Position numbers and translations under genes: made by a program. Positions 50,558 through 55,658 of a stretch of 57,097 nt of DNA are shown here, in pieces. The notes under the pieces were generated by a model that saw only the letters and a list, made by a program, of their open reading frames with translations, did no database searches and was not told the origin of the DNA. Each line of letters begins with the position of its first letter. The first letter of the stretch is position 1. The stretch spans positions 1 to 57,097 of the forward strand of contig CANQRU010000019.1 in assembly GCA_947626395.1 (NCBI GenBank), in the 5' to 3' direction. The stretch is from an uncultured Lachnospiraceae bacterium (GTDB lineage Bacteria; Bacillota; Clostridia; Lachnospirales; Lachnospiraceae).

Positions 50558-51459
50558 GCTGTCCGCTCCTTTCTGTGAAGCATTCCGTTAAGCCCGTCGA
50601 TCGCGCCCCTAAACAGCCACGGCAGAAGTTTTCCATAGATCAGCACCGACAGTACCACGCCGACCAGCCCGATCGCCAGCATCACCAGCCCGACGCCGAT
50701 ACATACGACACCGTCGAGCGGATCCGCAAATACTGCCGCGATTCCCGCCGCGACCACCGCGACGCCCGCCACCAGAAATACAAACGTCAATATCGCCGTC
50801 AGAAATACAAGTACAAGCAGCAGCACCACGATCGCCACCAGAATTCCGAAAGCGCCGCCAGCGAATCCAAGAAGCGCCGGCAGAACCGTGACTGCTCCTA
50901 TTATCGCTAAGATAATCCAAAGCACCTTCGCCGCCTGACCGCCGGAACCGGGCCGGCCGGGGGCTCCTGGTTGACCAGCGGCTCCTGGTTGACCCGGATT
51001 ACCGGCATGACCCGCGGCGCCAGGTTGGCCCGGATTACCGGTACGGCCCGCGGCGCCAGGCTGGCCCGGATTACCGGTACGGCCCGCGGCGCCCGATTGA
51101 TCTGCATTTCCGGAATACCCGCCGGTTCTGCTGTCAGCCTGACCTGCGCCAGTTCCGGTATTTCCGTAATGATATTCTTCCTGCTCCCGGCTTGCCAGCT
51201 GATAATTTGGTTCCCGGAACCGTTCATCCGTATAGCCGGTATCCGTAAATTCTCCGCCGTCCGCAAGATTCCCCTGAAGATCTGACCGGATGATCGAAGC
51301 GATCCGCTCCGGACTTCCGAACTCCCGCATGGCTTCCTCCGCCGAATCGCCGGCTTCCTCCAGATAATCGCGGTAATAATCCAGCGCGTCCCTCGTCTCT
51401 TCCTCCGGAAGGTCCGAGAGCAGATATTCCACCTTCTTCATGAATTCCTCTCTGTTCAT
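50554..51459 (-). CDS. DUF1700-family membrane protein with collagen-like linker
   Basis: A 301-residue protein. The N-terminal HAAS/DUF1700 domain (MNREEFMKKVEYLLSDL, EETRDALDYYRDYLEEAGD, EFGSPERIASIIRSDLQG) is followed by a Gly-Xaa-Yaa collagen-like stretch (residues ~115-185, units of GAAGRTGNPGQP) and four or so membrane spans (VLWIILAIIGAVTVLPALLGF onward). DUF1700 proteins act with PadR regulators; collagen-like inserts are not part of the family. ATG 51457-51459 has GAGGAGG upstream and overlaps the padR stop (ATGA). Confidence 0.88.
   Translation of the reverse strand: MNREEFMKKVEYLLSDLPEEETRDALDYYRDYLEEAGDSAEEAMREFGSPERIASIIRSDLQGNLADGGEFTDTGYTDERFREPNYQLASREQEEYHYGNTGTGAGQADSRTGGYSGNADQSGAAGRTGNPGQPGAAGRTGNPGQPGAAGHAGNPGQPGAAGQPGAPGRPGSGGQAAKVLWIILAIIGAVTVLPALLGFAGGAFGILVAIVVLLLVLVFLTAILTFVFLVAGVAVVAAGIAAVFADPLDGVVCIGVGLVMLAIGLVGVVLSVLIYGKLLPWLFRGAIDGLNGMLHRKERTA
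50959..51102. repeat. 36-base collagen-like coding repeat
   Basis: Three clear tandem 36-base copies (50995-51030, 51031-51066, 51067-51102) with more diverged flanking Gly-Xaa-Yaa codons. Each codes for 12 residues of four collagen triplets. The last two copies agree almost completely, suggesting recent slippage. Confidence 0.88.
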
Positions 51460-51776
51460 ATACGCGCCTCCTCGAATATTCTGGTGATCTTTCCTGAATA
51501 GCTGGCCCATTCGCTCTTATACAGATTCAGCTGGACCCGCCCCTTCTCCGTGATCCGGTAATACCTGCGGTTACGGCCGTCAATCGCCATGTCATACGTC
51601 TCCAGGCACTCATCTTTCTGCAAGCGCCGGAGTACCGGATATAAAGTGGATTCCGACACATCGATAACTCCCCGTACGTCCTGTGTGATCTTATATCCGT
51701 AAGTCCCCATCATATCCTTCGAGACCACCGCCAAAACGATCGCGTCCAAAAGCGCCGTCCCCGTATTAAATACCAT
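51456..51776 (-). CDS. PadR-family transcriptional regulator
   Basis: A 106-residue PadR-type winged-helix repressor: ALLDAIVLAVVSKDMMGTYGYKITQDV, STLYPVLRRLQKDECLETYD, and GRNRRYYRITEKGR are the family landmarks. It is the first gene of PadR-DUF1700-DUF4097, overlapping the next gene by four bases. It probably represses its own operon through the AT-rich repeats in the promoter at 51852-51886. The ATG 51774-51776 with AAGGAG upstream is chosen over an upstream in-frame start. The effector is unknown. Confidence 0.92.
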   Translation of the reverse strand: MVFNTGTALLDAIVLAVVSKDMMGTYGYKITQDVRGVIDVSESTLYPVLRRLQKDECLETYDMAIDGRNRRYYRITEKGRVQLNLYKSEWASYSGKITRIFEEARI

Positions 51777-51851
51777 ACAGCTCAACTCCTTACTACCTTC
51801 CCCGTTTGCACGGATCCTATTCTGTATGTGGAACACAGAAGTATCGTTCCG

Positions 51852-51886: not shown

Positions 51887-51973
51887 TATAGTACTTACTG
51901 ATTTCTGACGAAATATTTTTTGCAAATGTTGTCTGGTGGGATAAATGTCGGCGCACATAGTCGCGGAAGGTAC

Positions 51974-52227
51974 GCGTGACAGGCGGGGGCGGGACACATC
52001 ACGTACGCTCATGACTCCGAAGGGAAGTCTTTCTAAATTCAAAAACGTCAGTTTGAGGGCAACGGCAAATTCGCGTGAACTCCTGATGAGTTCACGCTCA
52101 GGTTGCCGCTCCGCCCATGACTTGTGGTCATGGGCTCCGGCCCTCAAACTGACGTTTTTTCATTAAGAAAGACTAACCCTTCTCCGTAAATCGCGTTCGT
52201 GATGTGTCCCGCCCCCGCCTGTCACGC
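51974..52227 (+). ncRNA. structured element, copy A (candidate RNA or hairpin mobile element)
   Basis: A 254-base element that folds into one long rod. The outer 30-bp stem is perfect (51974-52003 with 52198-52227). Next is an internal loop with conserved sides (52007-52027 starting GCTCATG; 52173-52195 ending AAATCGCG), then a perfect 19-bp stem (52041-52059 with 52141-52159). The tip is a branched loop with hairpin 1 (GCGTGAACT/AGTTCACGC, loop CCTGATG), a 6-bp stem CGGCAA/TTGCCG, and hairpin 2 (GCCCATGAC/GTCATGGGC, loop TTGTG) flanked by CTCC and TCCGGC. Copy B at 52597-52835 has the same plan in the other orientation. No protein is coded. I do not recognise the family. Confidence 0.75.
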
Positions 52228-52231
52228 TGTG

Positions 52232-52540
52232 TTTTCGCTGGAAGAATGTTGGGAAAAAACTGACTCACACTTTTTGCTGGCAGAATATTAAAGGAGAACC
52301 TACCTCACACTTTCGCTGACAGAACATTGAAGGAGAACCTAATCCCCCATTTTCACTGTCAGAACATTGAATGAGAACCTAACCCCCACTTTCACTGACA
52401 GAACACTGAATGAGAACCTAACACCCCATTTTCACTGACAGAACATTGATGGAGAACCTAACACCCACTTTCACTGACAGAACATTGATGGAGAACCTAA
52501 CACCCACTTTCACTGACAGAACACTAAATGGGATCCCATA
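52232..52540. repeat. eight-copy tandem array, 39-40 base unit
   Basis: Units start at about 52232, 52271, 52311, 52351, 52390, 52430, 52469 and 52508. The consensus begins TTTCACTGACAGAACATTGA and ends GGAGAACCTAACACCCAC. The middle copies are nearly identical (52430 and 52469 fully so) and the outer ones decay, as in arrays that grow by unequal exchange. There is no spacer, so it is not CRISPR, and the 39/40 alternation breaks any reading frame. It lies between structured elements A and B. Confidence 0.9.
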
Positions 52541-52596
52541 TCCTGCTTCTCTTTGGCAAAACGCTGAAAAACAAGCCTCGCTCCCGCGAAAAAACA

Positions 52597-52835
52597 GCGA
52601 GTGAACGCCCCGCCGTCTGCGCGATTTGTGGAGGATGGTTAGAGGTTCTTAGGCGAAAAACGGCCGCATCCGGGGCCGGAGCCCCTGACCTCAAGTCAGG
52701 GGCGGAGCGCAAGCTGAGTGAGAAATCCTTTCAGGATTTCTCACGAATTTGACGGTGCCCCGGATGCGGCCGTTTTTCGTCTTAGAACCTCTTCCATCCG
52801 GAACCATGAGCGCAGGCGGCGGGGCATCCACTCGC
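52597..52835 (-). ncRNA. structured element, copy B (inverted homologue of copy A)
   Basis: A 239-base element, read on the minus strand. Outer stem near 52597-52621 with 52810-52835 (a few mismatches), then the internal loop with the same conserved sides as copy A (52791-52811 and 52620-52642), 9-bp AGAGGTTCT/AGAACCTCT (52641-52649, 52784-52792) and a perfect 22-bp stem (52654-52675 with 52758-52779). The tip again has two hairpins: 11-bp (52718-52728/52734-52744) and GCCCCTGAC/GTCAGGGGC with a five-base loop. Stem sequences differ from copy A but stay paired; loops and joints are kept. Confidence 0.75.
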
Positions 52836-52909
52836 GTACCTACCGCGACCCCATTTACCACCCCCAACCAATCGTCGCCAACCTTCTATATTGCCACACA
52901 TACAAAAAA

Positions 52910-52981: not shown

Positions 52982-54955
52982 CTACTGCTCTTCCTCCGCC
53001 AGCTGCGCCCCCAGCGCCTCAACATCCACATCCGCCACATCCGGCTCTTCAACCGGTGCTTTCTTCTCCGGCGGGGCCTGCAGCGCCTTGATGCTTAAGC
53101 TGATCTTCCGATCCGCCTCGTTGAAGTCCACGATCTTCGCCTCGATCTCCTGGCCGATCGTCAGAACATCCGCCGGCTTATCCACATGCTCGCGGGAGAT
53201 CTGGGATACATGCAGCAGAGCGTCCACGCCCGGCTCCAGCTCCACGAAAGCGCCGAAGTCCGTCATCCTGGCCACACGGCCGGTAACGATATTGCCCACC
53301 GCGTACTTCTCCGCGGCGTCCGTCCACGGATTCTGATCCGGGAACTTAAGACTTAAAGCGATCTTGTCGCCGTGGATATCCTTGATCAGCGTGGTCAGCG
53401 TCTGACCGGCCTTAAAGACCTTCTTCGGGTTCTCCACGCGTCCCCAGGACATCTCGGAGATATGAAGCAGTCCGTCCGCTCCGCCCAGATCGATGAACGC
53501 GCCGAAATCGGTCACATTCTTGATAACGCCCTCTACCACATCGCCTACCTGGATGCGGGCAAACAGGGCTTCCTGCATCGCCTTCTTACGGGCTACCATC
53601 AGCTGCTTGCGGTCGCCGATGATCCTTCTGCGGCGGGGATTAAACTCGGTGATCACGAATTCGATCTCCTGACCCGCGAACTTGGACAGGTCTCTCTCAT
53701 AAACATCCGACACAAGGCTGGCCGGAATAAATACTCTTGCTTCCTCCACGACTACGCTCAGTCCGCCATCCAGAACCTGAGCTACCTTCGCGGTCAGAAC
53801 CTCCTGATTATTAAACGCGTCCTCCAGGCGCTTGTTGCCGCGGTCAGCCGCCAGCCGCTTGTAGGACAGGGCCACCTGGCCCTCGCCGTCGTTGACCTTC
53901 ACGACCTTGGCTTCCAGCTCGTCGCCTACATGAACCACGGTCCGAAGATCCAGATTCGAATCGTTGCTGTATTCATTCCTCGGAATGATACCGTCGGACT
54001 TGTACCCGATATTCAGGACAATCTCATCTTCTTTCACATCGATGACCTTACCGGTGACAACCTCTCCTGTACGTATAGTCTTCAACGATTCCTCCAACAT
54101 TTGTTCAAAAGTCTGCTCTGCCATTACTTTTTGAACCTCCTCAATAATTTTCTTTGGGGTCGATGCCCCTGCTGTAATACCTACGCTGCGCACAGAATCT
54201 ACACTTTCAGGTGATAAGTCGTCAAGTGTCTGAATGAAATGGGTGTTCTTACATTTCCTTTGGCAAATTTCAAAAAGCTTGCGTGTATTCGAACTATACC
54301 TACCGCCAATGACCACCATGGCGTCTACCTGCGAGGCAATCTGCTCAGCTTCCCTCTGCCGTTCCTCTGTTGCACTACAAATCGTATTGAAAACAACTAT
54401 ATCATAACCCTTTTTTGAAATTTTTTCAACTAATTCTTCAAAATTCTTGTAATTAAATGTCGTCTGAGACACAATACATAGCTTTTTGGATAAATCATGC
54501 GGCAAACCAGCTAAATCTTCCTCGGTTTTTACGCTCAAAACCGGCGATCTGCACCATCCGCGGATCCCTTCCACCTCCGGATGAGAGCTGTCGCCGATGA
54601 TGACGATCGTTCGTCCGGCTTCGCTCTGTTCCCGTACAATGTTATGAATCTTCTTCACAAACGGACAGGTGGCGTCTACCACGTTCAGTCCTCTGGACGC
54701 GAGAAAGTCATAGACCTGCGGCCCGACTCCGTGGGACCGGATAATGACTGTGCCTTCGTCAATTCCGGAAAGTTCTTCTTCCGACACCGCCCTGACTCCC
54801 TGCTGCTCCAGCTCCCGGACCACCTCTTCATTATGGATAATGGAACCCAGCGTATAAATGGGGCCCGCATCCTCCCGGATCCGGCTGTATACCAGATCCA
54901 TGGCCCGCTTCACGCCGAAACAGAAGCCGGCGGTCTTCGCAACGATCACTTTCAT
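52982..54955 (-). CDS. ispH-rpsA: bifunctional HMB-PP reductase IspH / ribosomal S1-like protein
   Basis: A 657-residue fusion known from Clostridia. Residues 1-283 are IspH, the last MEP-pathway enzyme, with three Fe-S Cys (TAGFCFGVKRA, DATCPFVKKIH, NTICSATEERQ) and the His residues in IIHNEEVV, IRSHGVGPQ and DSSHPEVEG. Residues ~290-635 carry four S1 RNA-binding domains (VTGKVIDVKEDEIVLNIGYK; LTAKVAQVLDGGLSVVVEE; VEGVIKNVTDFGAFIDLGG; VTGRVARMTDFGAFVELEP), then an acidic tail. ATG 54953-54955 follows AGGTGAG and lies seven bases after cmk. The stretch 54070-54545, across the end of IspH and the linker, is much poorer in GC than its surroundings. Confidence 0.95.
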   Translation of the reverse strand: MKVIVAKTAGFCFGVKRAMDLVYSRIREDAGPIYTLGSIIHNEEVVRELEQQGVRAVSEEELSGIDEGTVIIRSHGVGPQVYDFLASRGLNVVDATCPFVKKIHNIVREQSEAGRTIVIIGDSSHPEVEGIRGWCRSPVLSVKTEEDLAGLPHDLSKKLCIVSQTTFNYKNFEELVEKISKKGYDIVVFNTICSATEERQREAEQIASQVDAMVVIGGRYSSNTRKLFEICQRKCKNTHFIQTLDDLSPESVDSVRSVGITAGASTPKKIIEEVQKVMAEQTFEQMLEESLKTIRTGEVVTGKVIDVKEDEIVLNIGYKSDGIIPRNEYSNDSNLDLRTVVHVGDELEAKVVKVNDGEGQVALSYKRLAADRGNKRLEDAFNNQEVLTAKVAQVLDGGLSVVVEEARVFIPASLVSDVYERDLSKFAGQEIEFVITEFNPRRRRIIGDRKQLMVARKKAMQEALFARIQVGDVVEGVIKNVTDFGAFIDLGGADGLLHISEMSWGRVENPKKVFKAGQTLTTLIKDIHGDKIALSLKFPDQNPWTDAAEKYAVGNIVTGRVARMTDFGAFVELEPGVDALLHVSQISREHVDKPADVLTIGQEIEAKIVDFNEADRKISLSIKALQAPPEKKAPVEEPDVADVDVEALGAQLAEEEQ

Positions 54956-54962
54956 CTGCTTC

Positions 54963-55658
54963 TCACCTGCCTGCCCGTTCCGCCGGAAGTCCCCGGCTGA
55001 CCGCCGCGCCGATGATCGCATCGATCACCTGAACGATCGTCATATCCGAACTGTCCAGATACACGGCGTCCTCCGCCTGCTTAAGGGGCGCGATCTCCCG
55101 GTTCATATCCCGGTAGTCCCTGGCGCGGATCTCCTCTTCGATCTCCGCCAGGCTGCTCTCCTTCCCTTTCTCCAGCAGCTCTTTATAACGCCGCCTTGCC
55201 CGAACTTCCACCGAAGCGGTCAGATAGATCTTGGTCTGGGCGTCCGGCAGCACGCAGGTGCCGATGTCCCGCCCGTCCATGATCACGTCGGTGCTGGCCG
55301 CCAGATCCCGCTGCAGGCTCAGAAGCTTCTGCCGCACCGCCGCGTAGACCGAACAGGCGGAAGCCAGATGCCCCACCTCTTCCGTGCGGATCAAATCCGA
55401 CACGTCCTCGCCGTTTAAGATCACTCTCTGGGTCCCATCCTGATAGCGAATGGAAATGCTGATATCACCGCATGCCCGGCTGATCCCTTCCTCATCGTCC
55501 ATGCCGATGCCCTGCCTGTCGAAATACAGCCCCATAGCCCGGTACATGGCGCCGGTGTCCACATAGACGAAGCCCAGCTTCTTCGCGAGCGCCTTGGCGA
55601 TCGTGCTTTTGCCCGCTCCCGCGGGACCGTCGATGGCAATGTTATACGCTGCTGTCAT
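54963..55658 (-). CDS. cmk: cytidylate kinase
   Basis: A 231-residue NMP kinase that phosphorylates CMP and dCMP. P-loop AIDGPAGAGKSTIAKALAKK, then VYVDTGAMYRAMGLYF, VIMDGRDIGTCVLPDAQTKI and SVEVRARRRYKEL (lid) in family order. ATG 55656-55658 is chosen because family homology begins there and AAGGAGAG lies upstream; a frame extending 42 codons further has no homology. cmk followed by ispH-rpsA is a conserved clostridial arrangement. Confidence 0.95.
   Translation of the reverse strand: MTAAYNIAIDGPAGAGKSTIAKALAKKLGFVYVDTGAMYRAMGLYFDRQGIGMDDEEGISRACGDISISIRYQDGTQRVILNGEDVSDLIRTEEVGHLASACSVYAAVRQKLLSLQRDLAASTDVIMDGRDIGTCVLPDAQTKIYLTASVEVRARRRYKELLEKGKESSLAEIEEEIRARDYRDMNREIAPLKQAEDAVYLDSSDMTIVQVIDAIIGAAVSRGLPAERAGR

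Follow-up and report, generated by a model that had tools for sequence, protein, structure and literature searches.

The paired hairpins in the analysed window (57,097 nucleotides of contig CANQRU010000019.1, from an uncultured Lachnospiraceae bacterium) most probably form a non-autonomous mobile DNA element, in which two giant DNA-hairpin ends enclose a variable spacer and are read by a putative enzyme; we put the probability of this reading at about 60%. It builds on a family of hairpins that converge upon each other, obey a class rule, covary in the manner of DNA, differ in presence between species and, in one case, occur twice as a near-identical unit. The two hairpins of the window, A and B, are two classes of this one family, whose members are dispersed repeats undescribed in the literature searched.

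Hairpin A, of the left-end class, matches its profile at 51,954–52,238 on the plus strand, and hairpin B, of the right-end class, at 52,586–52,854 on the minus strand, inverted with its 3′ end towards A. The two are convergent and lie between a gene for a PadR-family regulator (51,456–51,836, minus strand; Pfam PF03551, E 2.1e-16) and a LytB/IspH–S1 fusion gene (52,982–55,021, minus strand; PF02401 and PF00575). An earlier note on this DNA had described two inverted, structured copies here, and an inverted-repeat search recovered the arms of both (A, 51,974–52,024/52,177–52,227 and 52,026–52,060/52,140–52,174; B, 52,597–52,638/52,794–52,835 and 52,641–52,676/52,757–52,792). Both fold strongly, with predicted energies of −187.7 kcal/mol for A (z −20.0) and −178.7 kcal/mol for B (z −13.0), equalled by 0 of 200 shuffles in each case. 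Its extent of ~240–254 bases was too short: the conserved unit starts at 51,950 with GGCGCACATAGTCGCGGAAGGTACGCG and A closes at 52,238 with CGCTGTGTTTTCGC. It also missed that the pair resembles the two ends of a single unit, and that the 347-nt spacer between them (52,239–52,585) holds a tandem array of a 39-bp unit (52,277–52,523, 6.3 copies). The left outer end (51,950–51,976, plus strand) carries the end motif TGCRCAYATRGTCGCGGRAGRTACGCG with one mismatch in a pattern search that returned 0 matches for the reversed pattern, and the right outer end (52,833–52,859, minus strand) carries a degenerate form, GGTAAATGGGGTCGCGGTAGGTACGCG.

Each hairpin of the family is an imperfect palindrome of 240–290 bp, predicted to fold into a long rod either as a single strand or as a cruciform. 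From the outside inwards it consists of the outer motif (conserved among units as TGCRCAYATRGTCGCGG.AGGTACGCG), a long outer stem, an asymmetric internal loop (GCTCATG.CTCC / CTCC..AAATCGCG), an inner stem and two tip hairpins, which give the rod tip of classes A and B its two small arms; the inner foot is CGCTGTGTT.TCGC. In A, the 5′ side of the internal loop (GCTCATGACTCC, 52,007–52,018, plus strand) and its 3′ side (CTAACCCTTCTCCGTAAATCGCG, 52,173–52,195, plus strand; the source of our loop search pattern) were read directly and are kept in an alignment of 65 copies. Alignment and fold place the tip hairpins on the plus strand at 52,073–52,097, with a stem that varies among copies, and at 52,113–52,135.

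Both described copies are present, but they are far from alone. The window's own genome contains 20 full hairpins (9 A, 7 B and 4 C) at 11 sites, a lower bound from sorting by profile, and two reduced copies besides (L158 and L169); BLAST of A against it gave 26 alignments, including self and antisense matches and some that are self-complementary. A found matches in nine of 26 genomes of the genus, where the earlier note would have been undone by a lack of further homologues, and the family was undetected in the other 17. The end motif (≤3 mismatches) occurs in eight of the 26, all among the nine matched by A, and the reversed motif in none. Beyond the genus, the motif (≤2 mismatches) was found in 2 of 397 genomes sampled from the family Lachnospiraceae, both of the same genus, and was missing from all 395 genomes sampled in other genera; BLAST of B, with few candidates scored per genome, matched 2 of 299 genomes, again both of that genus. 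The loop pattern retrieved 27 stretches from 84,980 species genomes, 26 of them from eight Lachnospiraceae metagenome-assembled genomes labelled Lapin, which suggests rabbit gut. The remaining one, an actinobacterial match (L057, 13.8 bits), and the only match on a viral contig (L077, 13.2 bits) were rejected as family members, their similarity being restricted to the surroundings of the motif. A 301-base query had no match among plasmids and phages, Rfam at gathering scores matched nothing in the whole window save one tRNA, and no description of this hairpin repeat or matching MITE emerged from the literature searched, a search whose reach excluded preprints and most subscription papers.

Comparison of the class consensuses (36 A and 14 B rows, hybrids excluded) showed agreement at 14 of 42 outer-stem positions versus 49 of 67 unpaired positions; conservation of the unpaired parts and not of the stems, noticed earlier between the two copies, thus holds for the classes. 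Class C has a different core, with the same outer motif and ends and a related foot, and the alignment can be read as containing hybrids, A outside and B inside or the reverse. All 41 neighbouring pairs of different class are convergent (AB 22, AC 15, BC 4), counting pairs distinct by sequence and ≤3 kb apart; the count includes the same site in several species, so that pairs are not independent, as well as one truncated C (L026), one core-deleted B (L099) and one A that runs into a contig end (L034). Same-class neighbours were tallied separately and number three: at L099 and at L040 the neighbours are pieces of one broken hairpin, and L098 comprises two B copies in the same direction ~1.3 kb apart. 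No same-class convergent pair exists among the sites of this count. At L206, a C converges with a diverged C′ of which only 30 bp (90%) and 68 bp (76%) can be aligned; C–C pairs are under-sampled, since matches to A, B or the end motif determined which sites were retrieved. The median longest exact match is 13 nt between A and B versus 55 nt for A–A and 53 nt for B–B. Spacers measure −2 to 495 nt, with one of 2338 nt (L012). About 15 further sites have a single hairpin in the stretch examined, some with remnants of a partner, and pairing is therefore not universal. In the genome G016, 17 of 18 aligned rows, A and B together, share an additional G ahead of AAATCGCG on the 3′ side of the internal loop (the exception is L070), which looks like a concerted change.

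A mobile unit of this kind could work as follows. Two hairpins of different class, facing each other with the conserved outer motif outside, would extrude from the DNA; with hairpin DNA as its presumed substrate, a putative trans-acting enzyme would recognise the extruded structures by their outer motif and conserved internal loops and would move or copy the whole unit. Stem letters could vary freely provided that pairing persists. Equal arms would create an unstable palindrome of >500 bp, which may be why the two arms of a unit are kept distinct in sequence. A bolder proposal, which we advance only tentatively, is that the units represent a new kind of transposable element with ends recognised mainly as shapes: largely non-homologous giant hairpins, read through their internal loops by a putative hairpin-specific enzyme and obliged to differ in class so as not to anneal.

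Mobility is suggested by two contigs of G016 (L092 and L093) that have 682 bp in common at 99.27% identity between flanks without match. The shared segment starts and stops ≤20 nt from the profile-defined ends, so that at least one hairpin pair looks like a whole unit copied to a second location. This near-identical unit, found in a draft assembly of a metagenome, is the one case that speaks for recent movement. Spacer similarity, which mostly stays within one site, also links different sites: L064 with L014/L051/L061 (76–82% over 111–143 nt) and L022 with L029/L037 (80.5% over 154 nt), in both cases with flanks that do not match, and L029 with L037. Three sites were compared at orthologous positions, with the loci profile-scanned. 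At L095, G016 and G013 carry A and B, the window's genome (G000) carries A alone, and the hairpin is absent from G015, G023, G018 and G017; at L054, A and B are present in G012, and G013, G000, G014, G021 and G010 have none; at L093, they are present in G016, with none in G013, G010 and G023. Inspection by eye of the often decayed ends of 41 sites showed no target duplication. The carrier at L054 has ~80–130 nt of extra flank unaccounted for by the unit. Hairpin remnants at L075, L060, L112 and L225 indicate that some presence/absence differences are losses, so that direction is not given by presence or absence.

Most sites are common to several species with the same flanks and therefore look old, which favours another explanation: that the hairpins are host DNA sites, intergenic cruciform-forming elements serving chromosome structure, transcription end or replication, their stems preserved either by selection or by template-switch repair and their dispersal ancient and largely over. 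It would also fit that A frequently lies near the 3′ end of an ORF, judged by a longest-ORF heuristic, and that the order from A to B agrees with positive GC skew at 16 of 21 sites, a weak count made up of 13 G000 sites (11 positive) and eight G016 sites (5 positive) with solitary B taken as a right end. The window itself, however, is an exception to the skew trend, near relatives have no hairpins at the same sites, the family is undetected in 17 of 26 genus genomes, and one unit occurs twice at 99.3%. As to how the stems are kept, template switching can maintain pairing without selection, according to PMC8794818; by itself it would presumably not maintain asymmetric loops. We regard the host-site explanation as unlikely.

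The nature of the preserved molecule was addressed with the 65-copy alignment (copies ≤240 nt removed beforehand, 70 kept and 65 aligned; L032, L058 and L059 were left out for long inserts, L097 for a cut end, as was the B hairpin of L037). Paired cells amount to 97.5%, 47 of 84 pairs are altered on both sides, and the covariation score is 0.399 versus 0.135 in shuffles (0 of 500 as high); covariation, which might have been lost on adding copies, instead grows. Because RNA can accommodate G.U on the strand that folds, whereas in a DNA palindrome nothing favours G.U over A.C, the kind of mismatch separates the two readings. Mismatches were counted in columns with Watson–Crick pairs in ≥60% of rows, a threshold that excludes one loop-closing U.G column, and the mismatch cells are not independent. 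The sense structure contains 43 G.U cells in 22 columns and 62 A.C cells in 24 columns, whereas RNase P from 16 genomes of the genus contains 49 G.U cells in 24 columns and no A.C in any. Disjoint close pairs (divergence ≤12%) gave 30 G.U and 29 A.C (23/19 in A, 7/10 in B) versus 23 and 0 for RNase P, and 12 class C rows gave 9 and 8. These changes suggest that folded DNA, and not RNA, is what has been preserved.

A structured non-coding RNA, or a pair of RNAs, dispersed in the genome with its fold under selection would account for the very strong fold and for covariation around conserved loops, and an antisense RNA could be envisaged: only 5 of 65 copies have a more stable fold on the sense than on the antisense strand, and the antisense fold has 81 G.U versus 24 A.C cells, which together allow a possible tilt to the antisense strand. 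By columns, however, the antisense counts are nearly even (23 versus 18), and since predicted folds favour G.U on whichever strand is folded, part of the antisense surplus, though perhaps not all, has that origin. The missing G.U surplus on the sense strand, the variable presence among species and the want of an Rfam match in the window speak against this explanation, which we consider quite improbable. Of the two branches offered by the earlier note, the non-coding RNA is not supported, for lack of a G.U surplus on the sense structure, and hairpin DNA read by a transposase or recombinase fits, with no such enzyme tied to the hairpins.

The search for that enzyme covered a single hairpin-transposase family, Y1_Tnp (PF01797), and tied none to the hairpins. 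Matches occur in 10 of 26 genus genomes (three of nine carriers and seven of 17 non-carriers), the genomes being drafts in which a RAYT gene could be missed. A Y1/RAYT partner was rejected on reading three carrier loci, all IS200-like, a set that leaves out one further G012 match; the fetched flanks of PF01797 carrier loci contained no hairpin element. Nor was an autonomous parent with the same ends noticed among the fetched sites. At L012 (2437–4769), an A–B unit between gidB and parA-type genes has at least three ORFs in the 2.3 kb that separate its hairpins, possibly captured cargo. A cargo transposase was discarded there, since Pfam showed nothing transposase-like in the three proteins tested: one is of EamA type, one has a tRNA-binding domain and the third, of 159 aa, has no match.

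The closest known parallel is with REPINs and BIMEs. In PMC3116915, REPINs are non-autonomous and intergenic, the inverted doublet is the unit (93% of 430 doublets), singlets are remnants, and the conserved paired bases of the two arms build one hairpin. The hairpin units resemble them in being non-autonomous, intergenic, inverted doublets with singlets as likely decay products, and two palindromic modules are here inverted as a unit (41 of 41 different-class pairs convergent; ~15 sites single). They differ in having arms of 240–290 bp that each fold on themselves, belong to different classes and share little sequence. Moreover, no RAYT was found for the family, which was detected in one genus only. 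Being true REPINs or BIMEs mobilised by a RAYT (TnpA-REP, a Y1 HUH enzyme) would explain the doublets, the singlets and a bulged palindrome preceded by a conserved motif (cf. PMC3116915 and PMC8266576), but like modules that would anneal to each other are lacking (A–B median exact match 13 nt; one C/C′ pair), REPIN arms as described in PMC3116915 pairing instead into one hairpin, and Y1_Tnp is present in only three of nine carriers, IS200-type where read and with no element in the fetched flanks; this makes the explanation very improbable. With two tested REPIN features absent, the unit is not classed as a REPIN even though it works like one. Compared with the TnpA-REP substrates of PMC8266576, the hairpin ends have no linked Y1 gene that we found.

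The family also shares traits with bacterial MITEs, BOX and bcr elements, which are likewise strongly folding, non-coding repeats scattered between genes, and its conserved outer motif in both orientations amounts to the terminal inverted repeats of a MITE; it differs by its paired giant hairpins of different class, without known transposase ends or a visible target duplication. Known TnpA-REP and IS200/IS605 ends are far shorter than these hairpin ends. In integron attC sites the fold similarly outweighs stem sequence and unpaired bases matter, but attC cassettes run in the same sense and the hairpins form inverted pairs. Ends of a hairpin-primed selfish replicon, as in the rolling-hairpin terminal repeats of parvoviruses, would match the rod with two tip arms and the one copy with body and motif on opposite strands, but with a single flipped copy recognised, chromosomal units and no replication gene noticed between the ends, this is the least probable explanation of all. 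That copy (L169 in the window's genome, C26:46867, ~1500–1640) measures ~150 nt and has lost its core; it sits between a gene for a sigma factor and one of spoVAA type, with an outer motif on the plus strand and a body that matches A on the minus.

Tandem repeats recur in the family. Of 42 stretches scanned with Tandem Repeats Finder, 21 contain tandem repeats, many of which lie in spacers or at hairpin feet and some of which are short or in plain flank. Repeats of 11–13 bp, similar to the end motif, lie at the outer foot of hairpins at L106, L093 (L037), L091 and L094 (G016), and other spacers and feet hold arrays of 11–13, 20, 28, 32 and 41 bp units. The tandem units of spacers recall boxB of BOX elements. 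Such arrays would be compatible with replication trouble at folded DNA.

If the mobile-element reading is true, these hairpins are a class of repeat in which selection acts on DNA shape over ~500 bp, and the balance of A.C and G.U mismatches, set against an RNA control from the same genus, offers a simple test of DNA-fold versus RNA-fold covariation. They would also carry a warning that elements other than RNA genes can yield strong RNA covariation scores. For the gut Lachnospiraceae, the finding would imply an enzyme that reads hairpins.
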